NCBI GenBank assembly: GCA_028709545.1
Contig: JAQVWT010000005.1
Location: 1 to 35,606 of the forward strand
Direction of reading: 5' to 3'
Length of the DNA: 35,606 nt
Source: Bacilli bacterium
Lineage (GTDB): Bacteria; Bacillota_I; Bacilli_A; RF39; UBA660
The position numbers were made by a program, and so were the translations under genes. The notes below the pieces were generated by a model. The model was not told where the DNA came from, made no database searches, and worked only from the letters and a program-made list of their open reading frames with translations. Shown here one piece after another: positions 1 through 25,652 of the stretch (positions are counted from its first letter, which is position 1; every line of letters begins with the position of its first letter).

Positions 1-474
1 TAAATTATAAGTATGAACTTTATCAGTCGAAGTTGGTACTGTGAAATTACCATAACCTAAAGGATATGTTCCTTCACCACTTCTTATATTAGTAAGTACA
101 TTAATAGATGATGCAACATTTCCACTATTATCATTGTTAGTGCTTATCATTTTATATTGAATAGCGTTTTCTGAGAATGTATTTTCTTCGACTACTAAAC
201 TTATTTTATAACCCATTGGTGTATTAGTATTATTAAAGCCAGTTACGGTAAATGTTTTGGTTCCAAATGGAGTATTGCCTGGAGCAATATTATCAACATC
301 AACATTACTTCCACCGTTATAGGTAATAACCATTTTACCACCTTTAGCAGTGATAGTAGTTGTCTCCTCACTACCAGTTATATTAGCAGTAAAATAGGCA
401 AAGGATAGTCCAATTGTTATTATTAATAGTAATATAATACCTAGTACAGTTGGGATAATGTTTTGTTTCTGCAT
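1..474 (-). CDS. Partial exported/surface protein (N-terminal part; continues off the left edge), paralog of the protein at 24063..25652
   Basis: Minus-strand frame open from ATG at 474 (MQKQNIIPTVLGIILLLIITIGLSFAYFTANITGSEETTT...) to base 1, with upstream AGGAGGTCCC. Shares 'VITYNGGSNVDVDNIAPGNTPFGTKTFTV...EENTFSENAIQYKM' with the 24063..25652 product. Not in the supplied ORF list because it has no stop in the window. Confidence 0.85.
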   Translation of the reverse strand, partial: MQKQNIIPTVLGIILLLIITIGLSFAYFTANITGSEETTTITAKGGKMVITYNGGSNVDVDNIAPGNTPFGTKTFTVTGFNNTNTPMGYKISLVVEENTFSENAIQYKMISTNNDNSGNVASSINVLTNIRSGEGTYPLGYGNFTVPTSTDKVHTYNL

Positions 475-3600: not shown

Positions 3601-6600
3601 TTCAATAAATACTTGGTGTTCATTAATATTTGTTGTTTGAGTTAAATCATCTTTTAAAGTTATGTTTAGTCCTAAGGTTTCTTCTTTAATATAATTTTCA
3701 AATTTGTTAATCATTTCTGTAATTTTTTCATCAGCGTTATAATAAATATTAATTCGATCTACTAAATCTAAACCTAGTTCTTTACGGATATTTTGAATTT
3801 TACTAACAAGTTCTCTTGCTAAGCCTTCTAATAAGAGTTCGTCAGTTACTTCGGTATTTAAAATAACAAAGTTACTGGCTTCCATACCAACATTTAAGCC
3901 TTCTTTAGATGATATTCTTACTTCGATCATTGCCTCAGTCACTGAAATTTCTTCACCCTTTAAAGCAAGTTTAATCTCTTCGCCATTTTGAAGTTTAGTT
4001 ATATCACTATTTGTTAAACTCTCTAAAGCAGCAGCGAAATCTTTTATTTTTGGACCGAATATTTTACCGACTTCTTTATAATTAGGTTTTACTGATAAAT
4101 GCATATAATCATTTAAATTATTAACATAAGTAATTGTTTTAACATTAAGTTCTTCTTTTATGAGTTCGGTTAATTCTCCGATTATATCTTTATTTTTACC
4201 ATCAAGTAATATTTCAGAAAGAGGCTGACGAACCTTTATTTTAGCATCTTCTCTAACTTTTCTACCAATACTAATTAAGTTTCTTACTAAATCCATTTTA
4301 TTCTCTAGAGGGATATCGATTAAATCTTTATTATATTCAGGAAAATCAGTTAAATGAACTGATTCATAACCAGTTAATTTTCGATATATTTCTTCAGTTA
4401 TAAACGGAGATATTGGTGCGACTATTTTACATAGTCCTACTAAGACTTCATAAGTAGTTATGTAAACAGATTTTTTAGAATTATTCAGTCCACTATCCCA
4501 AAAACGATCTCTATTTCTTCTAATATACCAGTTAGATAAATCCTCTGATACAAATTCAGTTATATATTTTACAACCTTATGAAGATCATATACTTCATAA
4601 GCATCTGTTGTATTTTTAACTAAAGTATTATATTTTGATAATAACCATCTATCTATATCTTCGCGATTCTTTTCGGGAACATCGCATTTATCTATATCAA
4701 TATTATCAATATTAGCATACATTGAGAAAAATGAATAAGTATTTTTAAGAGGATTAAAGAATTTTGAATAAACTTCTTTTAACCCTTCATAGTCAAATTT
4801 AAGTGGCATCCAAACCGGAGATGCATATGGTAAATAAAATCTGACTATATCTGCCCCATATTCTTCCATTAGGGCAAATGGTTCGATAACATTTCCTTTA
4901 CTTTTACTCATTTTTTTACCCTCAGCATCAAGTAATAAATCATTTACTAAGACATTTTTATATGGAGCTTTGCCAGTTACAAATGTTGATATTAAGATAA
5001 GTGTATAAAACCACCCTCGTGTTTGATCTATTCCTTCACAAATGAAATCAGCTGGAAACTGCGTATCAAAAAGTTCTTTATTTTCAAATGGATAATGATA
5101 CTGAGCAAATGGCATCGAGCCAGAATCAAACCAGCAATCTATTACTTCTGGTACTCTTTTCATCTCTTTAGAGCATTTAGAACATTTTAAATATATTTCA
5201 TCAATATATGGTCTATGAAGTGAAATATTATTATCAATTTTAGTAGTAGCTTTTTTTATAAGCTCTTCTCTTGATCCAATCATTTCTTCATGTGTGCATT
5301 CACATCTCCATAATGGAAGTGGCGTTCCCCAGTATCTATTTCTTGATATTGCCCAGTCATTCATATTAAGAAGCCAGTTACCAAAACGTTTTTCACCAAC
5401 ATGAGCAGGAAACCAGTTTACTTTTTTATTTTCAGCAATAACTTTATCTTTAATTTTTGTTACTTCTAAATAATAACTAGGTTTAGAATAATATATAAGA
5501 GGACTATCACATCTCCAGCAATGGGGATAATTATGATTTATTCTTTGTTTTTTAAATAATTTATCATTTTCTCTTAAATATTTAATGATTTCAATATCTG
5601 CATCAAAAACTAACATATCTTGCCATGGACCTTCGTTGTACTTCCCTGCCTCATCAACGGGATTTAATACTGGCAAATTATATTTCCTGCCGATCTCATA
5701 GTCATCTTGACCAAAAGCTGGAGCCATATGAACAATTCCCGTTCCATCTTCCATACTAACAAATGAATCATTAGTAACATAAAAAGCTTTCTTATCAGTT
5801 TTTATAAATGGTAAAAGTTGCTGATACTCTTTATATTCAAGGTCTTTACCTAAGTAGGTTTCAATTACTTCTCCATCTCCTAATATAGTTCCAACTAATT
5901 TTTTAGCAACAATAAAATTATAGTCACCAGACTTTACTTTAACATATTCTTCATTTGGGTTTACACAAAGGGCAACATTGGCAAGAAGTGTCCAAGGAGT
6001 AGTTGTCCAAACTAAAAAATATGCATCTAAATCTTTAGATTTAAATGGAACAATTACTGTATCAACAGCTATATCTTTATACCCTTGGGCAACTTCATGA
6101 CTAGCAAGCCCAGTTCCACATCTTGGGCAATATGGAAGTATTTTATGACCTTCATAAAATAAACCTTCATCAAAGAATTTCTTTAAAATCCACCACTCTG
6201 TTTCTATATAATTATCATGATAAGTTATATAAGGATTTTTAAGGTCAATAAATTGTCCCATTTTAGTTGTAAGTTTAGTAAATAATCCCTCATTACGAAG
6301 AACACTTTCACGGCATTTTTCATTAAACTTAGCAATTCCATATTTTTCAATATCATTTTTTACAGTAAAGCCAAGTTCTTTTTCAACTTCTAGTTCTACT
6401 GGAAGTCCATGGGTATCCCAACCAATCTTGCGTAGTACTTTATAACCTTTCATTGTTTTATATTTACAAAATGAATCTTTTAATAATTTAGCAAGCATAT
6501 GGTGAAGTCCTGGATATCCATTCGCAGTTGCCGGTCCATCATAAAAAACAAAATATTTGCTGCGATTATCAATTGATTTTTGAAAAATATCATTCTTTTC

Positions 6601-6669
6601 CCAATAATCTGAGTATGTAGACTCAACTTTGCTTACCTTTTCTTTACTTAATTCTTCAAATTTTTTCAT
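3577..6669 (-). CDS. ileS: Isoleucyl-tRNA synthetase, IleRS2-like (eukaryote-like type)
   Basis: 1030 aa; 'FYDGPATANGYPGLHHMLAK' signature region, 'GWDTHGLPVELEVEKELG', 'GKKMSKSKGN' KMSKS motif; T-box upstream. Confidence 0.97.
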   Translation of the reverse strand: MKKFEELSKEKVSKVESTYSDYWEKNDIFQKSIDNRSKYFVFYDGPATANGYPGLHHMLAKLLKDSFCKYKTMKGYKVLRKIGWDTHGLPVELEVEKELGFTVKNDIEKYGIAKFNEKCRESVLRNEGLFTKLTTKMGQFIDLKNPYITYHDNYIETEWWILKKFFDEGLFYEGHKILPYCPRCGTGLASHEVAQGYKDIAVDTVIVPFKSKDLDAYFLVWTTTPWTLLANVALCVNPNEEYVKVKSGDYNFIVAKKLVGTILGDGEVIETYLGKDLEYKEYQQLLPFIKTDKKAFYVTNDSFVSMEDGTGIVHMAPAFGQDDYEIGRKYNLPVLNPVDEAGKYNEGPWQDMLVFDADIEIIKYLRENDKLFKKQRINHNYPHCWRCDSPLIYYSKPSYYLEVTKIKDKVIAENKKVNWFPAHVGEKRFGNWLLNMNDWAISRNRYWGTPLPLWRCECTHEEMIGSREELIKKATTKIDNNISLHRPYIDEIYLKCSKCSKEMKRVPEVIDCWFDSGSMPFAQYHYPFENKELFDTQFPADFICEGIDQTRGWFYTLILISTFVTGKAPYKNVLVNDLLLDAEGKKMSKSKGNVIEPFALMEEYGADIVRFYLPYASPVWMPLKFDYEGLKEVYSKFFNPLKNTYSFFSMYANIDNIDIDKCDVPEKNREDIDRWLLSKYNTLVKNTTDAYEVYDLHKVVKYITEFVSEDLSNWYIRRNRDRFWDSGLNNSKKSVYITTYEVLVGLCKIVAPISPFITEEIYRKLTGYESVHLTDFPEYNKDLIDIPLENKMDLVRNLISIGRKVREDAKIKVRQPLSEILLDGKNKDIIGELTELIKEELNVKTITYVNNLNDYMHLSVKPNYKEVGKIFGPKIKDFAAALESLTNSDITKLQNGEEIKLALKGEEISVTEAMIEVRISSKEGLNVGMEASNFVILNTEVTDELLLEGLARELVSKIQNIRKELGLDLVDRINIYYNADEKITEMINKFENYIKEETLGLNITLKDDLTQTTNINEHQVFIEIEKANIL

Positions 6670-6674
6670 GTTTT

Positions 6675-6898
6675 CCTCCTAAAAATAAAAAATCCATAAA
6701 CTAAAGGACGAGTTTTACCCGTGGTACCACCTTAATTCATGAATATCATGCTCTTTAACTCATAACGGGAGTAACCGATTTTTCTTTTGAGAAAAATGCA
6801 TCAGATTAGTGATCTATTAATAAATATTATACTTACTTTTCACCAACTGTAAGTTCTCTATAATAATTTTTTATTAACCGTCTATCTTCGGCTGCTTA
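6675..6898 (-). promoter_or_regulatory. T-box leader of ileS
   Basis: Minus strand contains the T-box core AAGGTGGTACCACGG, Stem-I-like AGAGAACTTACAGTTGGTGAAAAGTAAGT, and a candidate ATC specifier downstream. Confidence 0.9.
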
Positions 6899-6904
6899 TA
6901 TAGA

Positions 6905-6933
6905 ATTATATGCAATTATTGCTACTTTGTCAA
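6905..6933 (-). promoter_or_regulatory. Promoter of the T-box/ileS transcript
   Basis: Minus strand TTGACA (6933-6928), 17-bp spacer, TATAAT (6910-6905). Confidence 0.85.
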
Positions 6934-6939
6934 ATTATT

Positions 6940-7404
6940 TTACAAGTTAGAATCATTATTATTAACTAATTCATTTAAATTACTAATTTCTTTTATAATA
7001 GTTAAAAACTCTAATATATCAAAAGCTATAATATCTATATTATTAAAATGCTTATAAAGTTTTATTGCTTCAATAACATCAACATGAATTTTTGGTGCAA
7101 GAAATATTGAAAAAGTATCCTCTTTAACTTTTTGTTTATATTCTGTTAAGTGTCTTTTTATAGGAATAATTTCATTATTAACTTGATCATGTCTCCCACA
7201 CATTAAAGTAACCTCAATTAAAGTATCCGATGTTTCTTTACTCTTACAAACAATATCAGCAATACCTCCACCTGCGGTAAACCTAGGTAACCCCTCATCA
7301 TCTACACTATAATTAGGCAATATTTCTAAATTTTTAAAACTTTGGGTTAAAGCAATACTTATTAAGAATTCTAATCTTGTAGGCGCACCTATATATCTAA
7401 ACAT
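6940..7404 (-). CDS. AlwI-family type II restriction endonuclease, C-terminal part (frame-shifted from 7446..8576)
   Basis: 'MFRYIGAPTRLEFLISIAL...PNYSVDDEGLPRFTAGGGIADIVC...EVTLMCGRHDQ...NEIIPIKRHL' resembles the AlwI-family catalytic core. The frame is open upstream to the A7 run at 7489-7495. Confidence 0.75.
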   Translation of the reverse strand: MFRYIGAPTRLEFLISIALTQSFKNLEILPNYSVDDEGLPRFTAGGGIADIVCKSKETSDTLIEVTLMCGRHDQVNNEIIPIKRHLTEYKQKVKEDTFSIFLAPKIHVDVIEAIKLYKHFNNIDIIAFDILEFLTIIKEISNLNELVNNNDSNL

Positions 7405-7445: not shown

Positions 7446-8540
7446 TTAATTCTTTAGTAATATCAGCAAATTTGCAAGTTCCTGCAACTTTTTTTGTCTT
7501 AAATCTACTTGAATCGTTTCGTTTTCCTCATCATATGATAATATCTTACTATCGATTACTCCCATATAATTAAAATATTGTTCTTTGCTTTTAAAATTAA
7601 TAGGACCTGTATATTTTTCTAAAATATAATCTATTTTTTCTTTTTCAAATGAGTTTATATCTAAAAATCTACCATTTCCTCTTAAAGAGAAAATCCCTGT
7701 AATCTGCATTTTTCTAATAAATTCATCAACTGCTTCACCACATATTTGATTGATTTTAAATCTCTTTTTCTGTGTTTCATCCGCACCAAGTATCCCTAAA
7801 CATATATCATATATATATTCATCACTGTAGTTAAAACCTTGAGTCGCTCTTATTTGTTTAATTAATTTGCAAAGCTCACTAGCATCATTATTGTTCCAGC
7901 AGATAAATAAACTTAATTCTTGTCTGAAGATGCCAGCAGATGCATCATCTTCTTGCTTTAACAATTTTATAACTTGAAGAAGTAAAATTAATGGGATATT
8001 GTTATTAGCGTTTTTTCTAAAAGGATTATTTGTTTGATATTTCATTAATGAGTTTAAAAAAACATTTTGAATTTTCAACTGATTAATTTGTTCATCCTCA
8101 TTAAAAGCATCTATCAACATATGACCAGTATTTGATATTTTTAAAGGTTCATTCATCTTGTAATAAACAAATCCAAATTCCATAGGTAGTTTAAACCAAG
8201 TATCAAATCTTGAAGGCCATCCTTTATTAAATCCAAATTCTTTATGGTTTTGAGGGCTATTTATTATAATATCTTTTACTTGTTTTGAAGTGAAAAACAA
8301 ATCCTCAGAATCATAAATGTTTCTATATATATCATTTCTTTTTTCATATCTAGTCCAATAAAGTTTGTTATAAATAACTTTTTCTACTATTTTCATTATT
8401 AATTGATCACTTAAAATTTGATTTTCAAATGGAAGCAAACATGTTAAAAAATTAGCAATTCGATTGGGATTTCTCATGGTCGTTGAAAATGATAATGGTT
8501 TCTTTATCGCTTTTTTCTCACTTTTCATAATTTGTAACAT
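7446..8540 (-). CDS. AlwI-family type II restriction endonuclease, N-terminal part
   Basis: 'KPLSFSTTMRNPNRIANFLTCLLPFENQILS...' AlwI-type N-terminus. Start MLQIMKSEKK at 8540 has AAAGGAAG upstream; ORF runs to 7446 in frame 0. Confidence 0.75.
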   Translation of the reverse strand: MLQIMKSEKKAIKKPLSFSTTMRNPNRIANFLTCLLPFENQILSDQLIMKIVEKVIYNKLYWTRYEKRNDIYRNIYDSEDLFFTSKQVKDIIINSPQNHKEFGFNKGWPSRFDTWFKLPMEFGFVYYKMNEPLKISNTGHMLIDAFNEDEQINQLKIQNVFLNSLMKYQTNNPFRKNANNNIPLILLLQVIKLLKQEDDASAGIFRQELSLFICWNNNDASELCKLIKQIRATQGFNYSDEYIYDICLGILGADETQKKRFKINQICGEAVDEFIRKMQITGIFSLRGNGRFLDINSFEKEKIDYILEKYTGPINFKSKEQYFNYMGVIDSKILSYDEENETIQVDLRQKKLQELANLLILLKN

Positions 8541-10440
8541 ATACTTCCTTTGAATTGTTTTTAATTGTATTATCATTAAAACTAATATAATTACTATTTA
8601 TATTATAGACTTTATACTTTTTACACCACTGATTAAAATAATGATTAGTATTACCTTTATGATAAATTAAATTAGTTATTCCAAATTTTACACCTTTACT
8701 ATTTAATTCATCTAGTAAATCAAATAGTTCTTTATCTTTAGCATCATCCCACATTTTATTATATTCACACGAAGAAACTAAATAAGGTGGATCTAAAAAT
8801 ACAAAGTCCCCTTCTTTAAATTCGATATCATTTATAAATTTTTTATAATCTTTATTATAAAAAATTATATTCTTATTTTCTATAAATGTTATGTAATTTA
8901 TAAGCGCGTTGTAAACATTTTTATTAAAATCTACATTACCCACTGGTAAATTAAAATCATTTTTAGAGTTAAATCTTATCATATGATTAAAACCATAAAT
9001 AAGTAGTAAATATAACCTTAACATATCTTTTTTATTTAAATTATAGTCGGCTCTTAGGTTATAGTATGCCTCTTTATTATATTTAGCATAATAAGTTTTA
9101 GGATATTGTTTTTTTAATTTTTCGGGAACTGTGATTCCTTTATATGAACAAGTTAAATTATAATTTTCTATTAATTCATATAATTTTTTTAATAATTTAT
9201 CCTTTTTATATCGATATTTCAAAAATTCTTTATGAAGTTTTATTATTGACTCATTTAAATCATTAAGAAGATATTCATCGGCAACTGTATTTAGAAAAGA
9301 ACTCCCTCCACCAACAAACGGTTCTATATATCTATTAATTTTTTGAGGAAATAATTCTTTTAATTGAGGCATTAATTTATACTTATCGCCAACATAAAAA
9401 AATGGTGAGCGAATTAAATTTTCTTTATTTTTTTCAACTTCAGTAATAAATACATATTCTTTATGATTATTTAAATTTGTTTTTCCAGCATTAAAAGCCT
9501 TATAGGGTTTTTCAAACACTTTCGTTTTACCCTTTTTTGATAATATTTCCTTAATTTGTTCTAATGATATCTTATTTTGAGAAGAGCTGCTTTTTGACGT
9601 ATAAGTATTATTATAAGTTACAACAATGTATTTAGCATTTATATTATTTATCAGTTCTTCAAAAGCCTTAGATGCATTACTTTTACAATATTCAGACATG
9701 TTTTCTTCTTTTGGTTTAAGGGCAGTTCCATATAACTCTGGTTTATCCCATTTAACTATTGTCTCTAATACATGATAAAATCTACTGTATTGTCTACTAT
9801 TATATGGTGGATCAATAAAGGCAATATCTGTTTTTATATTTTTTGAAAGTTTATTAGAATCTTTACGATATATTTTAATTGATTGATTTTCTTTTAATTT
9901 TATAGGTTTTATTAATTCAAATCTAAATTTATCTTTAATTGCATCTGTCTTTATATAGGCCTCATAATGCCCTACTGTGTTTGAAATTTTGTCAAGAGAA
10001 TATAAGAGTGAACTAATTAAGATAGCATACTCTTTATAATTAATCTTTTTATTTATATAATCATCTTCTATGTTCTGTCTTATATCTCCGATTACTCTTG
10101 CATCATTGTTTGAAAAATATTTATCACCAAAATTAATTGAAACATAATTATCATCTGTAGCCTTTAATTCGTTAAATTTTTCGAAATATTTTTTTAGTTT
10201 TTCTCCATCATAATCTTCTTGTAAAAAGAAGCCATTAAATATTATTTCATTAGAATACAAAAAATCATTAAGTACATAATCATCATATTTTTCTATTAAA
10301 TAATTTGTAACAGAGCCAGTCCCAGCAAAAACGTCAAAAAAAGATTTGCAGCCCTTACAATGCTTAGTTATAAGGGTTTCGATCCAATCCATTAACTTGC
10401 GTTTATTCCCAGTATATCTACGATTATATATATTAAACAT
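8518..10440 (-). CDS. Fused two-domain N6-adenine DNA methyltransferase (two D12/Dam-like domains)
   Basis: 640 aa with two MTase domains: 'RYTGNKRKLMDWIE...FDVFAGTGSV...AFIDPPYNSRQYSRFYH' and 'SPFFYVGDKYKLMPQLKELFP...YIEPFVGGGSSF...VFLDPPYLVS'. Confidence 0.9.
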   Translation of the reverse strand: MFNIYNRRYTGNKRKLMDWIETLITKHCKGCKSFFDVFAGTGSVTNYLIEKYDDYVLNDFLYSNEIIFNGFFLQEDYDGEKLKKYFEKFNELKATDDNYVSINFGDKYFSNNDARVIGDIRQNIEDDYINKKINYKEYAILISSLLYSLDKISNTVGHYEAYIKTDAIKDKFRFELIKPIKLKENQSIKIYRKDSNKLSKNIKTDIAFIDPPYNSRQYSRFYHVLETIVKWDKPELYGTALKPKEENMSEYCKSNASKAFEELINNINAKYIVVTYNNTYTSKSSSSQNKISLEQIKEILSKKGKTKVFEKPYKAFNAGKTNLNNHKEYVFITEVEKNKENLIRSPFFYVGDKYKLMPQLKELFPQKINRYIEPFVGGGSSFLNTVADEYLLNDLNESIIKLHKEFLKYRYKKDKLLKKLYELIENYNLTCSYKGITVPEKLKKQYPKTYYAKYNKEAYYNLRADYNLNKKDMLRLYLLLIYGFNHMIRFNSKNDFNLPVGNVDFNKNVYNALINYITFIENKNIIFYNKDYKKFINDIEFKEGDFVFLDPPYLVSSCEYNKMWDDAKDKELFDLLDELNSKGVKFGITNLIYHKGNTNHYFNQWCKKYKVYNINSNYISFNDNTIKNNSKEVYVTNYEK

Positions 10441-10655
10441 AATAAGCTCCTCTCTACTTTTATATCTATAAAAAGTATATCATCTTTTAAATATAAATGG
10501 AATGACTTTTCAAATTTTCCCATCCACTTTACTCTTTATAATATATGTACACAACTTATTTCTATTTTCCTTTAAAATAATTAAAAATAAAAAAGCAGCT
10601 TTTGAGAAAACAAATCTGCTTCTTATATCTAAAATTTTAATGATAAATACTAAAA

Positions 10656-11915
10656 TTATTTTTTTAAATTCGCGATTGATACTACTAATACTCCATCTGA
10701 TCTTTGATATGAGTTTTGTCCACCGTAAAGAACCATTAAAAATGCTGGTTTACCTTTTATATCAGTATTAATTTTATTTTTTAATTCAAGTAAATTAGCT
10801 GCTGCTTCATCAACTTTTTCTTCGCCAAGTTTTACTTCTACTGCTCCCCATCTACCATCATTTAACTCTAAAATCGCATCGACTTCATAACCTTTTTCTT
10901 CTCTATAACTAAATATATTACCATCAATACTATCTATATATATCCTTAAATCTCGTAAAGCTAATGCTTCAAATAAGAAACCAAAATAATTAAAATCAGT
11001 TAATATTTTTGTGCTTGTTAATCTTAAAGAAGAACATACTAGTGAAGTATCAACTAACAACTTTTTATCACTTTTTCTAAGCGCTGTTTTACTTCTAATT
11101 GAAGTTGGCCATGAAGTAATATTTTCAATTATAAATAATTTTTCTAAAGTATTTTTATAATCACTAAATGTATTACTACTAATTTCTATTCCTTCATTTA
11201 CCATATCTTCCATTATAGTTACATCACTTGCATATGTTGCAATATTTCTAGAATAAGATTTTAATAGAGCATTCATTTTAGACGGATCTCTTTTTACTCC
11301 ATCAATAGTCACGATACGTTCATTTATTAAAGAATTATAATAATCATTCATAAATAAGACGGCATCTTCTTCACTATAATCTATAGTTTTAGGAAACCCT
11401 CCTCTTATTATTAAATATAATATTTTTTCTAAAGAAAGATCACACTGAGCAAAAATTTTATGATTTCCTGAGAAAAGTTTTTGCAAAGATACTTTCCCAT
11501 CTGAATCTCCGCTTTCATATAATGACATTGGTCTCATTTTTAAGGTTGCTATTCTGCCTGTACCAGTATGCATTACTTTATCTCTGTTTATATTAACAGA
11601 CCCCGTAAGAAGATATAATCCGTTTTCACCTTTTTTATCTATATCATGACGGATAGTATCCCAAATCGAATAGTTGTCTTGCCACTCATCAAAAAGAATT
11701 GGATTTTCACTTTCCAATAATGTTTGTGGGCTATTATTTACTTGAAACTTATAAAATTCTTTTTTTACTGGATCTTGAAATTCAATTACAGTTTGAGCAA
11801 ATTGCTTGGCACTTGTTGATTTGCCAACAAATTTAGCTCCGGTAATTAATACTCCTCCAAATATTTTCAATTTTTTTTCTAGCATTTCATCAGATATTCT
11901 TTTTAAATATTTCAT
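10656..11915 (-). CDS. AAA ATPase with DUF4143 C-terminal domain
   Basis: ORF 10656..11930; best start MKYLKRISDEML at 11915 with GGAGG upstream. 'GVLITGAKFVGKSTSAKQF' Walker A, 'PILFDEWQ', 'YLLTGS', C-terminal 'EVDAILELNDGRWGAVEVKLG'. Confidence 0.9.
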   Translation of the reverse strand: MKYLKRISDEMLEKKLKIFGGVLITGAKFVGKSTSAKQFAQTVIEFQDPVKKEFYKFQVNNSPQTLLESENPILFDEWQDNYSIWDTIRHDIDKKGENGLYLLTGSVNINRDKVMHTGTGRIATLKMRPMSLYESGDSDGKVSLQKLFSGNHKIFAQCDLSLEKILYLIIRGGFPKTIDYSEEDAVLFMNDYYNSLINERIVTIDGVKRDPSKMNALLKSYSRNIATYASDVTIMEDMVNEGIEISSNTFSDYKNTLEKLFIIENITSWPTSIRSKTALRKSDKKLLVDTSLVCSSLRLTSTKILTDFNYFGFLFEALALRDLRIYIDSIDGNIFSYREEKGYEVDAILELNDGRWGAVEVKLGEEKVDEAAANLLELKNKINTDIKGKPAFLMVLYGGQNSYQRSDGVLVVSIANLKK

Positions 11916-11970
11916 TTTTAGGACCTCCATTTAAAATATTATACTATAAAAGATGTGACATTGCAAATAA

Positions 11971-12057
11971 TTGAGTGTTTTAGGAAACTTTCATTGAGCG
12001 TTTTAGGAAACTTTCATTGAGTGTTTTAGGAAACTTTCATTGAGTGTTTTAGGAAAA
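11971..12057. repeat. 23-bp tandem repeat array, about 3.8 copies
   Basis: Unit TTGAGTGTTTTAGGAAACTTTCA at 11971, 11994, 12017, 12040 (exact 23-bp period, one T/C difference in copy 2, last copy partial). Confidence 0.95.
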
Positions 12058-12058
12058 C

Positions 12059-12100
12059 AAAACCAGCAGTTATTAATAAAACATTACTGCTGGTTTGATT
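12059..12100 (-). terminator. truB operon terminator
   Basis: Minus strand AAACCAGCAGTaatgttttattaataACTGCTGGTTTTGTTTT. Confidence 0.8.
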
Positions 12101-12921
12101 TTCTCAGGATCTTTATCATACTTTTGATAAAGAGCTATTTCTTTATTACCGACGACAAATAAAATATAATCTTTTATTTCTCTATCTAATATTTGACCAT
12201 TTTTAACTTTATATAGCATTTCTGGATCTATTTCTTCTTGAGGATAGTCTTTTAATATCTCAACTACACTATATAAATAATGTTTATTATATAAAACATC
12301 ATCTAAAGATGCTGCATTTTCTATATTAAAGCTACCTAAGGATGTTCTTTCAAGTTCAGTAAGGGTGGCTACTGTTCCAAGTGAGGCTCCAATATCTCTA
12401 ACTAAACTGCGGATGTAGGTTCCTTTAGATACTTTAGTTTTAATTTTAATAATATCATCTTTAATAGATAAAAGTTCTATATCATATATAGTCACATCTC
12501 TTTTAGGAAGCTCTACTTCCTCATTGTTTCTAGCATATTCATATAATTTTTTACCATCAACTTTAACTGCTGAATAAATAGGTACTTCTTGGTTATATGT
12601 TTTAATATATGATTTTAATATCTTCTTAATTTCTGATTCTTTAATACTTACTTTTTTATTAGTTATTATTTTACCAGTTATATCTAAAGTGTCAGTTAAT
12701 ATGCCTAGTTTAAAGGTGGCAATATATTCTTTATTTTGGCTAGTTAAAATATTTGATAGTTTAGTAGCCTTGCCAACTAAACAAACTAGAACCCCAGTTG
12801 CCATAGGGTCTAATGTGCCTGTATGGCCTATTTCTTTTGTTTCTAAGATTTGATTTAATCTATTTACTACATCTCTACTAGTAATACCCACTGGTTTGTT
12901 GATAACTATCGCACCATTCAT
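12073..12921 (-). CDS. truB: tRNA pseudouridine(55) synthase
   Basis: 'MNGAIVINKPVGITSRDVVNRL...IGHTGTLDPMATGVLVCLVGKATKLS'. Confidence 0.97.
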   Translation of the reverse strand: MNGAIVINKPVGITSRDVVNRLNQILETKEIGHTGTLDPMATGVLVCLVGKATKLSNILTSQNKEYIATFKLGILTDTLDITGKIITNKKVSIKESEIKKILKSYIKTYNQEVPIYSAVKVDGKKLYEYARNNEEVELPKRDVTIYDIELLSIKDDIIKIKTKVSKGTYIRSLVRDIGASLGTVATLTELERTSLGSFNIENAASLDDVLYNKHYLYSVVEILKDYPQEEIDPEMLYKVKNGQILDREIKDYILFVVGNKEIALYQKYDKDPEKIKPAVMFY

Positions 12922-12922
12922 T

Positions 12923-13465
12923 TTATCTACCCTTCTTTATTTTTCCACTATATTTAGTTGCATCATTGTACTGTGCTTGAGGTATAAAGTCGGTTTTTTC
13001 AACAACCTTTTTTAATGCCCCAATAGTATGAGGAACTTCAAGTTCAACTGTATCTATATCATTTGTTAAGAAGTACTCTCTTACGCCTTCTAGTAAGTAT
13101 TCAGATGCTGATTTGTTATCTTTGAAATTTATTATAAACTTCTTACGATACTCTGGTTTTATATAAATACTATATATTCCCCCAACATTGTCAGCAAAAA
13201 TTCCAACGCATGCAAAACCGATTATATCCTCTTCTATATATAATCCTAAGACTCTTTTATCAATCATATTCTTAGGAATAATATCCGAAACTGCTTCAGC
13301 AGTTTGCTTCTCAGCAAAATCTTTATTAAAATCCAAAAACTCTCTTATTTTAGTTATTGGGATTTTACTAGTCCAATCTGTTCCTAAAACTTGTTTATAA
13401 TAATCATAATACATTTCAAGTAGTTCTTCATAGTCCGTTTTTTCAATGTTTTTAATAAAAATCAT
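12923..13465 (-). CDS. GNAT-family N-acetyltransferase
   Basis: 'IGFACVGIFADNVGGIYSIYIKPEYRKKFIINFK...' GNAT-like core; 180 aa. Confidence 0.7.
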   Translation of the reverse strand: MIFIKNIEKTDYEELLEMYYDYYKQVLGTDWTSKIPITKIREFLDFNKDFAEKQTAEAVSDIIPKNMIDKRVLGLYIEEDIIGFACVGIFADNVGGIYSIYIKPEYRKKFIINFKDNKSASEYLLEGVREYFLTNDIDTVELEVPHTIGALKKVVEKTDFIPQAQYNDATKYSGKIKKGR

Positions 13466-13482
13466 AATATCCCCCTAAACGA

Positions 13483-13821
13483 TTATTTATTTATATCGGC
13501 AAGTATTTTTTCAATATTAGCACCATACTCTATCGACTCATCAAAAATAAATCGCAAGTTTGGTGTATGTCTAATATCCATACGCTCAGCAAGTTCTGTT
13601 CTTAAAAAAGAGCTTGCTTTATCTAGTTCATCTTGAACCTCTTTTTTATCATATTCACTTAAATAAGTATAATATATTTTAGCTAAGCCTAAATCAGAAG
13701 TTACATCAGCGGCAGTAATAGTTATTTTATTAAGTATTTCTGATTTAGCTTTTTCTAAAATAATTTCTGATAATTCTTTTACAATTTGTGAACCTATCCG
13801 TTCTGTTTTGATTTTACTCAT
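13483..13821 (-). CDS. rbfA: Ribosome-binding factor A
   Basis: 'SKIKTERIGSQIVKELSEII...ITAADVTSDLGLAKIYYTYL...RTELAERMDIRHTPNLRFIFDES'. Confidence 0.95.
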   Translation of the reverse strand: MSKIKTERIGSQIVKELSEIILEKAKSEILNKITITAADVTSDLGLAKIYYTYLSEYDKKEVQDELDKASSFLRTELAERMDIRHTPNLRFIFDESIEYGANIEKILADINK

Positions 13822-15923
13822 TTCTTTATTTCTACCTTTTCATAAGTTTCAAAAATATCTTTTTCTTTAATGTCATTATAATTTTCAAGAGTTATTCCAC
13901 ATTCAAAACCTTGTTTTACTTCTTTAACAGTGTCTTTCTCTCTTTGAACAGAAGAAATTTTACCATCATGAATTATAACTCCGTCTCTGATGATTCTTAC
14001 CTTAGAATTATTTTTAATTAATCCGCTTGTTACCATAACTCCAGCAATATTTCCAACTTTACTAAATTTAAATAATTGACGAACTTCAGCAGTTCCTATT
14101 ATTTTTTCTTCAAATTCTGGATCAAGTAAACCTTTCATTGCCAGCTCCATCTCTTCTACTAGTTTATAAATAACTTGGTACAATCTAATTTCTACATTGT
14201 ATTCCTTAGCCACATCTTTAGTAATAGAAGAAGGAGATACATTAAAACCAATCACAAGAGCATCAGATGCATTGGCTAGAACAATATCACTTTCCGTAAT
14301 CGTTCCAATGCCAGATCTTATTACTTTGATTCTTGACCCTTCTATATCGATTCTTTCTAGAGCATTTTTAACGGCTTCTTCCGAGCCTCTAACATCACAT
14401 TTTAAAACAACATTTATTTCTTTTACGCCACACTTTATTTTTTCAAACATATCTTCAAAAGTTAAAGGAATATTTTGACATTTTTTTTCTTTACATTGAA
14501 CGAGTCTCTTCTCAGCAACTTCTCGAGCTGATTTTTCAAGTTCAAAAGCCATAAATTTATCTCCAGCTTCTGGATTTGCATTTAGTCCAGTGATTTCAAC
14601 CGGTGTTGAAGGGCCTGCTTCAACAATATCTTTACCCTGATCATCTTTTAAGGTTCTTACTCTACCATGAGTTGTTCCAACGACAACAGGATCTCCAAGT
14701 CTTAATGTTCCGTTTTGAATCAGTAGTGTTGCTACTCCACCAACATTTTTATCAATACGCGATTCAATAACAGTTCCAACTGCATAGCGATTGGGATTAG
14801 CTTTAAGCTCACCAACTTCTGCAATGACTAAAAGTGTTTCTAAAAGTTTGTCGATACCTTCTCCTGTATGAGCGCTGATATTAACAAAGGGAATATCTCC
14901 GCCCCATGCCTCGGGATTTAAATTAAGAGCAGCAAGCTCTTGCATAACTTTATCAGGATTTGCCTCTTTTTTATCGATTTTATTAACGGCAACCACAATT
15001 GGCACTTCAGCTGAAAGTGCATGCTCGATTGCTTCTTTTGTTTGAGGCATTACCCCATCATCGGCTGCAACAATTATAATAACAATATCAGTTACACTTG
15101 CCCCTCTTGCCCGCATTTCTGTAAATGCCGCATGACCTGGTGTATCGATAAATGTTAACTTTTCATTATTATAAGTAGTTTGGTAAGCACCAATTGCTTG
15201 AGTAATTCCTCCGGCTTCACATGATGCCACACTTGCACATCTAATATAATCAAGAAGTGTGGTTTTTCCATGATCTACATGGCCCATAACCGTTATAACT
15301 GGTGGTCTTTTAACTAAATCTTCATCACTATCAATAATTTCATATTCTTCAAAATTAGAAATGTCTTGACTTTCTTCTTTTTTAAGTACTTTTTTATAAT
15401 CAACAACTAGTATTTCTGCTGTTTCAAAATCAAGTACTTGATTTTGATTAAGCATTAGTCCTAAACCAATTAATTTTTTTATTATATCCGCACTATTTAC
15501 TTCTAAACTATCAGCAAAATCTTTAACAGTCATTCCTTCTTTATAAAGAATAATATTACTGCTATCATCGACATTTCCCATTAGTTTAATTTTGTTTTTA
15601 TACATCGCTTTTCTTTTCTTTGTATAATCACTTGATTCTTTAACTGTAGATTTCTTTTTTAATTTTTGTTTTCTTTCAGTATCTTCTTTAATAAAATTCG
15701 ATTCTTTTAATATTTCTTCAACAGCATCATCTAGTACATCATTATCTTCATGGGTTGCATCCGTATCGGTGCTGATAAGGTTCATAGAATTATCTAAAAC
15801 AATAATATCATCATCATCTAAAATATCACTGCCTTCAGTTTTTTTAATTCCCAGTTCATTGCATTTTCCTAGCACTTCTTGAACTGTATAGCCCATCTCC
15901 GCTGCATATTCTTGTATACTCAT
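13818..15923 (-). CDS. infB: Translation initiation factor IF-2
   Basis: 'RPPVITVMGHVDHGKTTLLDYIR...GGITQAIGAYQ...FIDTPGHAAFTEMRARGA...VNKIDK'. Confidence 0.99.
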   Translation of the reverse strand: MSIQEYAAEMGYTVQEVLGKCNELGIKKTEGSDILDDDDIIVLDNSMNLISTDTDATHEDNDVLDDAVEEILKESNFIKEDTERKQKLKKKSTVKESSDYTKKRKAMYKNKIKLMGNVDDSSNIILYKEGMTVKDFADSLEVNSADIIKKLIGLGLMLNQNQVLDFETAEILVVDYKKVLKKEESQDISNFEEYEIIDSDEDLVKRPPVITVMGHVDHGKTTLLDYIRCASVASCEAGGITQAIGAYQTTYNNEKLTFIDTPGHAAFTEMRARGASVTDIVIIIVAADDGVMPQTKEAIEHALSAEVPIVVAVNKIDKKEANPDKVMQELAALNLNPEAWGGDIPFVNISAHTGEGIDKLLETLLVIAEVGELKANPNRYAVGTVIESRIDKNVGGVATLLIQNGTLRLGDPVVVGTTHGRVRTLKDDQGKDIVEAGPSTPVEITGLNANPEAGDKFMAFELEKSAREVAEKRLVQCKEKKCQNIPLTFEDMFEKIKCGVKEINVVLKCDVRGSEEAVKNALERIDIEGSRIKVIRSGIGTITESDIVLANASDALVIGFNVSPSSITKDVAKEYNVEIRLYQVIYKLVEEMELAMKGLLDPEFEEKIIGTAEVRQLFKFSKVGNIAGVMVTSGLIKNNSKVRIIRDGVIIHDGKISSVQREKDTVKEVKQGFECGITLENYNDIKEKDIFETYEKVEIKK

Positions 15924-15941
15924 TTAAGAGCACCGCCTTTC

Positions 15942-16193
15942 TTAATCTATAATCTTTAATAATTCATCATATATTATAGTATCAACTTCAGTTGCAAATA
16001 CTTGATTTAATACTTTAATATTTTTTGCTTTATTTATTACTTCACTATCTTTTTTTAAATAGCATCCTTTACCATTTAGTTTGCCAGTTACATCAATTTT
16101 TATTTCATTTTCATAATTTACAATCCTAATTAATTCTTTTTTAGGTAATTTTTCTTTTGTAACAACGCACATTCTCATGGGAATTTTTTTCAC
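15942..16193 (-). CDS. ylxR: YlxR-family RNA-binding protein
   Basis: 'PMRMCVVTKEKLPKKELIRIV...DVTGKLNGKGCYLKKD' between nusA and infB. Confidence 0.9.
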   Translation of the reverse strand: MKKIPMRMCVVTKEKLPKKELIRIVNYENEIKIDVTGKLNGKGCYLKKDSEVINKAKNIKVLNQVFATEVDTIIYDELLKIID

Positions 16194-17311
16194 TAATCTT
16201 CATTTCCTTCTTCAGTAATTTGCTTTAAAGTTTTAACGGTAATATGAAACTTCGTAAGTCTACTTGCAAGTTTAATATTTATTCCTTTTTTACCAATTGC
16301 CAGTGGTAAGTTATCTTCATCAACAATTGCTAAAGCTTCTCTTGTTTTTGTATCATCGATGATATTTACAATAACACCTTTAGCTGGTGATAATGCATTA
16401 GCAATATATTCGCTGTTATCTTCACTATAAAGAATTAAATCTATTTTTTCACCATTTAATTCTTTTAAAATACTAGATATTCTTGAGCCTCGCTCACCAA
16501 TACACGTTCCAATCGGATCAATTCTTTCTTGATCGGTATTTACAGCTACTTTACTTCTTACCCCTGCTTCTCTAGCAACGCCATAAAGTTGTATTACTCC
16601 ATCGGCAAGTTCTGGTATTTCTTGTTCAAATAATCTTTTAACAAAATTATTATGTTTTCTAGAACATAAGATAAGTGGTCCTTTAGGAGTTTCTTCGATT
16701 TTTTGTAAATATACTTTAATTGAAGTCCCCATTTTTACTTCTTCTCCTGGTATCATTTCGGTTTTAGGTAGTATTCCTCTTGTTCTACCTAGATCGATAT
16801 AATAATTTCTATTATCTTCCATTGCCAGCATACCTAGCATTATTTCATCTTGTTTATTTGAAAACTCTTCAATTATACTTAACTTTTCAGCATCTCTAAT
16901 CTTCTGGGTTAAAACTTGTTTAGCAGTTGATGCTGCTACTCTGCCAAAATCTTTCGGCGTCACTTCTTCTTCAATTGTCTCACCGATTTTAATATTTGCT
17001 ACAAGTTTTTGAGCATCTTCAAGTAGTATTTGAGCATCTTCATTTATTTCTGGTTCTAAATAAGTAATATTACCTTCTTCATCAACAGTTTCTTCTCCAT
17101 CAATATAATCATCGACAACTACTAAATAAGAATAAACTTTAATATCTCCAGTTTCTCTATTAATATCTACTTTAACATTAGTCTTAGAATCAAAGTTTTT
17201 CTTATAAGCAGTCATTAACGCTTGCTCCATACTTTCAAAAACTATATCTTCATTAATCCCTTTTTCTTGAGAAATATTTTTAACTGCCTTAATAAATTCT
17301 TTTGTATCCAT
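16193..17311 (-). CDS. nusA: Transcription termination/antitermination factor NusA
   Basis: 'MDTKEFIKAVKNISQEKGI...RTRGILPKTEMIPGE...RSKVAVNTDQERIDPIGTCIGERGSRI'. Confidence 0.97.
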   Translation of the reverse strand: MDTKEFIKAVKNISQEKGINEDIVFESMEQALMTAYKKNFDSKTNVKVDINRETGDIKVYSYLVVVDDYIDGEETVDEEGNITYLEPEINEDAQILLEDAQKLVANIKIGETIEEEVTPKDFGRVAASTAKQVLTQKIRDAEKLSIIEEFSNKQDEIMLGMLAMEDNRNYYIDLGRTRGILPKTEMIPGEEVKMGTSIKVYLQKIEETPKGPLILCSRKHNNFVKRLFEQEIPELADGVIQLYGVAREAGVRSKVAVNTDQERIDPIGTCIGERGSRISSILKELNGEKIDLILYSEDNSEYIANALSPAKGVIVNIIDDTKTREALAIVDEDNLPLAIGKKGINIKLASRLTKFHITVKTLKQITEEGNED

Positions 17312-17314
17312 CTC

Positions 17315-17566
17315 TTAACCTCTTTCTTTACTGGAAATATCTAATATATATTCTTCTTCTATTAAATCATACTCATCAATGAGTGGATTTATTATCTTAG
17401 TTGCACTTGTTACTGCATCTAAATCAAGACCACCGACTTTGTCTAAAGTAATCTTTAAAAATTTATATTTATTTTCTTTAACAAACTCTATTTTATCAAC
17501 GATGATTTTTTGATCAACTAATTTACTTTCAATTCCTTTTTTTATTTTTTCTAAACTCTCTTGCAT
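17315..17566 (-). CDS. rimP: Short RimP-like ribosome maturation factor (N-terminal domain only)
   Basis: 83 aa directly upstream of nusA: 'FLKITLDKVGGLDLDAVTSATKIINPLIDEYDLIEEEYILDISSKERG'; stops where the N domain normally ends. Confidence 0.75.
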   Translation of the reverse strand: MQESLEKIKKGIESKLVDQKIIVDKIEFVKENKYKFLKITLDKVGGLDLDAVTSATKIINPLIDEYDLIEEEYILDISSKERG

Positions 17567-17581
17567 ATATCCTCCTAAAGC

Positions 17582-17611
17582 AATAATAAAAGCGGGATGT
17601 TTTGCCCACTT
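17582..17611 (-). promoter_or_regulatory. Hairpin plus U-rich tract in the rimP leader (possible attenuator)
   Basis: Minus strand AAGTGGGcaaaacatCCCGCTTTTATTATT between the rimP promoter and its AGGAGG SD. Confidence 0.55.
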
Positions 17612-17625
17612 AAATCTGTATTTGT

Positions 17626-17654
17626 ATTATAGCAAAGGTAACTTCTAAAGTAAA
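17626..17654 (-). promoter_or_regulatory. Promoter of the rimP-nusA-infB operon
   Basis: Minus strand TTTACT, 17-bp spacer, TATAAT (17631-17626). Confidence 0.75.
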
Positions 17655-17714
17655 GGATTTGCATTAAAGTAAAATATGTTTTTATAAATTTTACTGAAAA
17701 TGTATTATTATATA

Positions 17715-17738
17715 AAAAAACAACTAGCTACCAGTTGC
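17715..17738 (-). terminator. Terminator after pgsA
   Basis: Minus strand CAACTggtagctAGTTGTTTTTTT directly after pgsA. Confidence 0.7.
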
Positions 17739-18329
17739 TTATTCAGTTAAATACTTCTTATTTAAAATAAAATACTGCACTCCAGAAAATACTGAAAGAA
17801 TAGTTGCAATAAATACTAAATAATTCCCAAGCGAGATATTTAATAATTCTAATGGTAAGTTTGAGAAAAATATCATTGAAATCCCAACCATCATAAAAAT
17901 AGTTTTAACCTTTCCCCAAATAGATGCTCCAACTGCAGCATTTTTAGACCCTGCTACCATCTTAATTGAATCAACTGCTATATCTCTTGTCACAATTACA
18001 ATTGGCACTATAACAGGCAATAAACCATCATAAGCAAGTGCTATTAATACGCCATTTACTAGTACCTTATCAGCAATAGCATCCATTACTTTACCAAAGT
18101 CCGTAACAATATTGCACTTGCGGGCTATACTTCCATCTAAGAAGTCAGTAATTGAAGCTATAATAAATAAAATTCCTGCTATTATATATTTTAAATCTAT
18201 GATGATTTTCCCAGCTACTAAATATTTTGGAAATTCTACTCCTATTTGATAAAAAGGAAAAACTAATAAAATAATCACTATAACAGCTAAAATCATTCTT
18301 CCTATCGTAATCTTATTTGGTAAATTCAT
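17739..18329 (-). CDS. pgsA: CDP-diacylglycerol--glycerol-3-phosphate 3-phosphatidyltransferase
   Basis: 'MNLPNKITIGRMILAVIVI...ASITDFLDGSIARKCNIVTDFGKVMDAIADK' CDP-alcohol phosphotransferase motif. Confidence 0.95.
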   Translation of the reverse strand: MNLPNKITIGRMILAVIVIILLVFPFYQIGVEFPKYLVAGKIIIDLKYIIAGILFIIASITDFLDGSIARKCNIVTDFGKVMDAIADKVLVNGVLIALAYDGLLPVIVPIVIVTRDIAVDSIKMVAGSKNAAVGASIWGKVKTIFMMVGISMIFFSNLPLELLNISLGNYLVFIATILSVFSGVQYFILNKKYLTE

Positions 18330-23882: not shown

Positions 23883-23903
23883 AAAGAAATCTTTGCCTTA
23901 GTG

Positions 23904-23950
23904 CTGTAATATTGGACGCTACGTAGTGCCTACGCGTCTCAATATTACGG
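23904..23950. repeat. Long nested inverted repeat
   Basis: GTAATATTG-GACGC-tacGTAGtgcCTAC-GCGTC-t-CAATATTAC. Confidence 0.85.
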
Positions 23951-24003
23951 TTATAATCTTTTTCTTTCAATTATTATAATTCTTTTATCTTCTCATTTTT
24001 TCT

Positions 24004-24024
24004 CCCCGGAAGGGTTTCCGGGTC
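24004..24024. repeat. GC-rich hairpin 39 bp downstream of the candidate variable-protein gene
   Basis: CCCGGAA-gggt-TTCCGGG on the plus strand: 7-bp perfect stem, 4-nt loop. Confidence 0.85.
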
Positions 24025-24062
24025 GATTTCCTCAGAGATAAGAGTCTGCGACATCTATTATT

Positions 24063-25652
24063 CTACTCTACAGCAATTACTGTGAATGGATTGATTGCAC
24101 TACCCTCACCGGATATTCTTGTCGCTGATATAAGAGAAACTGACGGACGCGCCCCGAGGGCGCCGTACACGACGCTGTAGCCCAGATTACCAGACGAATT
24201 AACGCGCCACCCGATCGCATTCCCACCCGAGTCCATGTAGTATGGCGAAAACGACCACCAATTCTGATTGGTGTATAAATAATTTGTACTATTACCTGTT
24301 CCATATACTAATCCTGCCATTGATGCTTCATCTGCTGTTAACAACCCCACTGGATTAGTAAGAGCTCCATTACCTACTTCTCCATCTACACTGGTGGTAA
24401 ATTGATCATTTTGTAATCCACATTTTAAAGTTGGGGTTTTCTTTGTGTATAGTCGATAATATGCGGCGTAATAGGTCGTACTAGTTCCTATACCAGTACC
24501 TGTTGCTTCTCCTCCTACCCCTGGATCGCTTCGAAGTTGGCGGTCATTACAAAATAGATTATCTGCTACCTGGGATCCTAAGCCTTTATCAAATATGTTA
24601 ATCTTATACCAATTATCTAGTATTGTTTTTATATTGGTATTGGTTTGATTGAAGGTGGCTGATACAGAAGTTGTTCCGAATCTTTCAGATGATGCACTTC
24701 CATTTGCACCTCCATACATATATCCGACATATTTTGCATCGTTATAATTTGTTTCATTCCAAGCATGAGTTCCTTCTATTTGGGTAGCTTCTCCAGTATC
24801 GTTTACTTCTCCATTTGTATTAAACTGTGCCTCTGTTCCATTATATAAAAGTCTTATTGACCCATCACCATTGATTCTAACTATCTTCCACTGGAAACCT
24901 CCCCAGATTAGGTTATTGTTGAGTTCTGTTTTTTCTCCTCGATAATAATACGAGGTTCCGTATTCATCTTCAGCTGAATACAAACCCGTATCTTCTGATG
25001 TTGATATTTTACTAAAGTCAGGACCATCTTTTTCCTCTATTGCTGAGGCTCCGCCGCCTTGGGCTAGAATTGCATCGCCTAGTTTAGGTGGTATATAATT
25101 TTCTAGAAGTAGATGAGCTTTAAATGTTTTACCTAAGTCATCTATTTGGTTATCTTCTGTTTTATAAAAATAGATATTTAATTCATAAGTATGGACTCCA
25201 TCAGTTATTTTACCATCATAGTTTCCAATTCCTAGTGATGATGATTCTTGATTTATTGGTGTTCTTGTTGTTATATCTGGAATAGTATTACCATTTGCTG
25301 CAGTATTAATTCCAGTTAATGTATAAGTGATTGCATCTTCTGAAAATGTATTTTCAGCAACTACTATTTTTATTTGATAATACATCTGAATAGCTGTAGT
25401 ATTATTACCTTTTACAGTAAAGGTTTTAGTTGCAAAAGGATCTGTTGATGGAGCTATGTTATTTGCAATAATTTCTGGGCCTCCATCATATTCCATTTTT
25501 AAATTACCAGTATTCCCGGTAACTGTTGTACCTGTTTCAATATCATTTAATCTTGCTAAATAATATGAATATGCAACACCTACTGTTAAGAAAAATACTG
25601 CTACTATTATTATTCCGGCTAAGATCTTATTTATTATTTTTACTGTTTTCAT
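24063..25652 (-). CDS. Exported protein with C-terminal C-type-lectin/FGE-like domain; candidate DGR variable protein
   Basis: N-terminal hydrophobic signal and 'AYSYYLARLNDIETGT'; 'NNNLIWGGFQWKIVRINGDGSIRLLYNG'; C-terminal 'LTADEASMAGLVYG...NWWSFSPYYMDSGGNAIGWRVNSSGNLGYSVVYGALGARPSVSL'. Confidence 0.85.
   Translation of the reverse strand: MKTVKIINKILAGIIIVAVFFLTVGVAYSYYLARLNDIETGTTVTGNTGNLKMEYDGGPEIIANNIAPSTDPFATKTFTVKGNNTTAIQMYYQIKIVVAENTFSEDAITYTLTGINTAANGNTIPDITTRTPINQESSSLGIGNYDGKITDGVHTYELNIYFYKTEDNQIDDLGKTFKAHLLLENYIPPKLGDAILAQGGGASAIEEKDGPDFSKISTSEDTGLYSAEDEYGTSYYYRGEKTELNNNLIWGGFQWKIVRINGDGSIRLLYNGTEAQFNTNGEVNDTGEATQIEGTHAWNETNYNDAKYVGYMYGGANGSASSERFGTTSVSATFNQTNTNIKTILDNWYKINIFDKGLGSQVADNLFCNDRQLRSDPGVGGEATGTGIGTSTTYYAAYYRLYTKKTPTLKCGLQNDQFTTSVDGEVGNGALTNPVGLLTADEASMAGLVYGTGNSTNYLYTNQNWWSFSPYYMDSGGNAIGWRVNSSGNLGYSVVYGALGARPSVSLISATRISGEGSAINPFTVIAVE
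24133..24262 (-). other. Candidate DGR variable region (VR)
   Basis: Codons TAC TAC ATG GAC TCG GGT GGG AAT GCG ATC GGG TGG CGC ... GGC TAC AGC GTC GTG TAC GGC GCC CTC GGG GCG CGT. Hand count 73/120 G+C over 24141-24260 in an otherwise strongly AT-rich window; dominated by NNC codons. Confidence 0.6.

Follow-up and report, generated by a model that had tools for sequence, protein, structure and literature searches.

Diversity-generating retroelements (DGRs) are copy machines that randomise only the adenines of a template. The cellular DGRs with membrane-bound targets described by Roux et al. 2021 (PMC8144416) combine a C-terminal variable repeat (VR), adenine-specific differences from a non-coding template and a reverse transcriptase (RT) with Avd, and their targets are multi-domain proteins that carry a membrane segment at the N-terminus and a C-lectin-like domain at the C-terminus. 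In gut phages, DGRs also target C-lectin-like domains of the DUF6273 type, which tentaclins carry in a form hypermutated by phage DGRs (PMC10743442). In Treponema denticola (PMC4891356) the targets are surface proteins encoded far from the core cassette, with more than one template in the species. Known DGR accessory proteins also include those with a MutS domain I (MSL, PF01624; PMC10053308).

The locus described here lies in a stretch of 35,606 nucleotides from a Bacilli bacterium (RF39; UBA660), referred to as the window, which is contig C32 of its draft assembly. We propose that the minus-strand segment 24142-24248 is very probably the variable repeat of a DGR, and that the target is most likely acted on in trans. 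The locus resembles the systems of Roux et al. 2021 (PMC8144416) in the features listed above, its C-terminal domain being probably C-lectin-like. It differs from them in that one small genome holds two cassettes and also targets that fit a third type of template, each template having several target genes at a distance from the cassette. It shares with the tentaclins (PMC10743442) a target of probable DUF6273 type, likely C-lectin-like, whereas here the gene is cellular and stands among housekeeping genes, the domain is C-terminal, the VR is at the very end of the gene, and the window protein itself falls below the Pfam DUF6273 model. It is like the Treponema denticola DGRs (PMC4891356) in its remote surface-protein targets and multiple templates, but belongs to another phylum, has another target family and involves a MutS-domain-I-like accessory protein in the cassette. 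The class is known; the new case is a probable in-trans cellular DGR target of DUF6273/C-lectin-like type in a small-genome Bacilli/Mollicutes lineage. A literature search for diversity-generating retroelement and Tenericutes together returned only a liver-disease review.

The target gene (24063..25652, minus strand) is an open reading frame of 529 residues comprising an N-terminal hydrophobic segment, a middle part and a C-terminal domain of probable DUF6273/C-lectin-like type, and its product is probably a membrane-anchored surface protein. Its neighbours, by inspection, appear to encode polynucleotide phosphorylase, ribosomal protein S15 and other housekeeping functions, and as far as the window shows the gene lies outside any prophage. 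The protein family has 16 matches in the same genome, and each of the 7 other species in the genus has matches as well. A protein search also identified a fragment of a second family member, the N-terminal part, at 1..447 on the minus strand (residues 10-158 matched); it is cut by the contig end and is separate from the VR.

The original prediction had read a segment of about 61% G+C at the 3' end of this gene as the product of A-to-N retrohoming from an AAC-rich template. Its hand count for 24141-24260 proved exact on recount (73/120, 60.8%); the whole window has 28.1% and the gene before the segment 34.2%. The stretch is near the top in G+C of all 120-bp stretches in the window, and a window scan found at most 48.3% in those starting outside 23900-24400. 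The thirteen NNC codons are present as listed, the C-terminal order NWW-S-SP, VNSSGNL, GARPSVSL had been read correctly, and the 3' position in the minus-strand gene is confirmed, the VR ending about 80 bp short of the stop codon. NNC codons make up 13 of the 44 codons touching the segment and 55 of the 486 in the remainder of the gene (Fisher one-sided P = 0.0017); codons ending in G or C number 29/44 and 89/486, respectively. By itself the NNC excess is modest evidence, which the comparison of paralogs lifts above chance.

VRs with the window skeleton also occur at contig C34 and at the junction of C53 and C13, and more distant VRs are found at C35, whose paralogs have drifted away from the skeleton. 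In the alignment of C32, C34 and C53, 69 of 103 VR columns are invariant, and A stands at only 5 of these 69, against 233 of 607 (38%) in the 800 bp upstream (Fisher P=2e-8). The distribution of changes over codon positions is inverted as well: position 3 differs in 3-10% of the codons within the VR but in 26-27% of those in the preceding part of the domain, whereas positions 1 and 2 differ in 23-38% of VR codons against 10-14% upstream, a two- to threefold higher frequency in the VR. This combination is expected if the sequences were copied repeatedly from a single A-mutated template, and it is not expected from ordinary divergence or selection. About ten of the 39 variable columns need no template A, and ordinary divergence accounts for some of them. 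Because the third codon positions of the three VRs are near-identical while their flanks have diverged, the copying from a common template is recent.

On this basis (the alignment of three paralogous VRs, the A-poor invariant columns and the inverted codon pattern) the VR is placed at about 24142..24248 on the minus strand. Its A-derived variable columns run over 24157-24243, after which it ends in a GC-rich block resembling an IMH, CGGGGCGCGTCCGTC (24142..24156), a candidate initiation-of-mutagenic-homing site by position. The block is common to C32, C53 and, with one change, C34, and the template/VR pairs of the two other cassettes of this genome (C63/C64 and C80) end in equivalent GC-rich blocks. 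The 3' flank GTTTCTCTTATATCA (24126..24140) is identical in the three paralogs. Past the stop codon, some 110-130 bp beyond the VR, a GC-rich hairpin CCCGGAAACCCTTCCGGGG followed by an A-rich stretch can be read from the sequence at approximately 24000..24030, on the same strand.

The source of these variable copies was sought in the organism's own genome, a draft of 1.15 Mb in 80 contigs, 95.8% complete. Searching it for a template and a DGR RT, as the original prediction had advised, revealed two other DGR cassettes, but the matching template was not found in the assembly. The first cassette, on C63 (L001:1-2312), consists of a template, a MutS-domain-I protein (MutS_I), an Avd-like protein and an RT with the motifs GIPIGNYTSQ and YMDD. 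In its VR on C64, 15 template A's are changed, and the repeat is otherwise unaltered up to the GC-rich end. Several VR-like targets of the C63 DGR lie on other contigs (C64, C71, C35:9695 and C6); the C64 target is a clean A-only copy, and C6 holds a chimera-like joint of template and VR where contigs overlap. The second cassette, on C80, comprises a template, genes for Avd and for a small protein resembling the C63 MutS-domain-I protein, and two VR genes, each of which shows about 15-16 A changes; its RT (L002:1180-2157) lacks, in frame, 32 residues that bear YxDD in aligned relatives, and the template and both VR genes remain. The C80 Avd scores 48.3 bits against bAvd, above the Pfam cut-off, and the C63 Avd-like protein scores weakly (19.7 bits, below the cut-off); NCBIfam DivGenRetAVD matched the cassette Avd proteins with E values of 1e-11 and 2e-8, both below its curated cut-off.

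The C63 and C80 templates were rejected as sources of the window VR, since their skeletons differ from it, and weak DNA matches on C54, C5 and C75 proved to be unrelated genes. Searches of the genome for a template of the window type with the VR as query, with the skeleton pattern (3 mismatches allowed) and by an adenine-tolerant scan of a set of contigs found only VRs; across the genus, the same skeleton pattern occurred in this genome only. A search of the assembly with the cassette RT of a sister species (G001, below) revealed no third RT, and the only complete one, that of C63, accompanies a template of another type. The exact predicted-template pattern in viral contigs and a distant search of phage records gave no match, and hence no sign of a phage-borne cassette. 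As neither of the genome's own templates fits and no third RT was found, a third cassette is missing from the assembly, has been lost, or is replaced by service in trans from C63. We infer that the genome has, or until recently had, a third cassette that is absent from the draft assembly.

Loss would make the window VR a fossil: the template and RT of the DGR that wrote it would be gone from the strain, leaving an ordinary, frozen gene end. The absence of both from an assembly of this completeness is consistent with such a history, as are the C35 paralogs that have left the skeleton, and the C80 RT without its YxDD residues implies that cassette decay does happen in this genome. The near-identical third positions of the C32, C34 and C53 VRs beside diverged flanks, however, point to recent copying from a common template. 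Furthermore, DGR loci break this assembly: C53 and C13 (L019 and L020) share an overlap of exactly 127 bases that lies within the VR, apparently a break of the assembly graph at a variable repeat, C63 begins at the flank of its template, and C6 ends in a VR. The absence of the template is thus weak evidence, and we consider a frozen remnant possible but unlikely. The original prediction would have been refuted by a complete genome lacking both template and DGR RT; the present genome is instead an 80-contig draft that holds two other DGR cassettes and is broken at DGR loci, and it does not refute the prediction.

The reading of the VR as the work of a DGR can be followed into relatives by rebuilding its template, for which A was written at 29 of the 39 variable columns of the window VR skeleton. 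The resulting sequence is of the type GGGTGGAACGTTAATTCGTCTGGTAAT... with AAC runs and ends in GGGGCGCG. In a search of 295 genomes of the family, including the genome itself, it matched 34 of the 294 others. Most of these matches are A-rich and non-coding, and an open frame bearing DGR-type RT motifs lies within 1.5 kb of about half of them. The best span 77-104 bases, skeleton included; some of the shorter ones owe their similarity to runs of AAC, which DGR templates have in common. With T written in place of A, the skeleton matched 0/294 other genomes and only the genome itself, as did the real window VR as query, and a reversed skeleton gave weak matches (E >= 4e-4) in 3/295. The proposed A-to-N retrohoming from an AAC-rich template is thereby supported.

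The sister species G001, of the same genus, provides the template/VR pair itself. Its contig C28 carries a non-coding template of the window type, FSPYNFNGSNANVWNVNSTGNLNNNNVNNSNALRPAIS, followed by MutS-domain-I-like, Avd-like and RT genes (the names of the first two reflect their similarity to the C63 proteins), and a homolog of the window protein with a VR is encoded away from this template, on contig C42. Between template and VR, 18 of 33 template A's are changed and 1 of 74 other bases, so that the adenine-specific differences anticipated for the window gene are demonstrable in its homolog. By eye, the window VR can be aligned residue by residue with the G001 template, in which Asn occupies the positions of the window residues Y, D, I, R, G, Y, S, V, Y, G and L, each encoded by an NNC codon. 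Two further pairs, in G201 and L047, have a window-type template and its VR within one locus, with 15 A changes in each.

Some relatives carry more than one template-like segment. Closely spaced segments at G148:C15 (8010 and 8235) and in L051 (G227:C30) are perhaps short template arrays. In L076 (G147:C11:8000-18000) a tandem array of 13 non-coding template-like units, spaced 270-306 bp apart, occupies 3839-7223 on the minus strand and adjoins a gene for a 1061-residue target with a VR; there is no RT within this 10-kb segment (8000-18000). Among the substitutions in its units, 64 of 112 depart from a majority A, and it looks as if the templates themselves were A-mutated; a literature search on tandem arrays of template repeats found no DGR paper. 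Separately, the protein of L079, filed under a Bacteroidales MAG, is identical to that of L087, from a Bacilli MAG, over the compared C-terminal stretch including the VR, and L079 is probably a mis-binned contig.

An arrangement of that kind bears on the possibility that the C63 RT serves the window VR in trans, from a template elsewhere in the genome and with no third RT involved. The C63 RT is the only complete DGR RT in the assembly, its contig starts just upstream of its template, and the relative's 13-unit array has no RT in its 10-kb segment. Most RTs beside window-type templates in relatives are, however, closer to the C80 RT than to that of C63, and G001 has its own RT next to its window-type template, which makes service from C63 rather improbable.

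Far less probable is an origin with no retroelement at all, by gene conversion among paralogs or by strong diversifying selection on a binding loop. The 16 family matches in the genome are potential substrates for conversion, and loops of this kind can change quickly. Neither process, however, predicts a loss of A at invariant columns or codons that change at their first and second positions while the third stays frozen, and both leave unpredicted the non-coding A-rich templates beside RTs in relatives that match the A-filled but not the T-filled skeleton. A recent import from a GC-rich donor, suggested by 61% G+C within a 28% G+C window, can practically be dismissed, as three diverged paralogs have this GC-rich skeleton in the same position and differ in it mainly at A-derived columns, and the G001 pair copies G, C and T positions almost unchanged.

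The part of the protein that includes the VR-encoded end was modelled with AlphaFold2 (residues 191-529, 20 relatives aligned), giving a confident model (pLDDT 88.6). Its best fold match in the PDB is the IgA peptidase of Thomasclavelia ramosa (9qa6; E 8.7e-6, with a TM-score of only 0.34), for which we know of no DGR link. The N-terminal domain of that enzyme is DUF6273 (PMC12402451); the window protein, unlike it, has no peptidase. The C-terminal domain of Legionella Lcl (E 0.26) and several C-type lectins are weak fold matches, and several of the best viral fold matches, which are significant, are DUF6273 proteins. In Pfam, DUF6273 (PF19789) is recognised in 7 of the 20 family members aligned, with a best E of 1.2e-4, and the window protein falls short of the model; a PDB sequence search with the family profile returned nothing significant. 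The C-terminal domain is therefore likely C-lectin-like in its modelled form, and a C-lectin fold is not claimed as established because the fold overlap is only partial (TM about 0.3-0.4).

Taken together, it is proposed that the DGR RT and Avd copy the RNA of a non-coding, AAC-rich template repeat with misincorporation at template A's, and that the resulting cDNA would be exchanged for the corresponding 3' end of the target gene, with the GC-rich block CGGGGCGCGTCCGTC as its anchor. The altered residues would lie on the probably C-lectin-like C-terminal domain of a protein presumably displayed at the cell surface, where they may alter the binding of a ligand. A wider and more doubtful extension is a genome-wide network of unlinked templates, RTs and targets, in which several template types, some of them A-mutated tandem arrays, serve many surface-protein genes in trans, and a single RT may also work for templates that have a dead RT (C80) or none of their own (the window type).

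From variable copies alone it is thus possible to identify a DGR target, to reconstruct its missing template and to locate that template in relatives. The locus points to a small-genome lineage with a large surface-protein family kept variable by several DGR cassettes.
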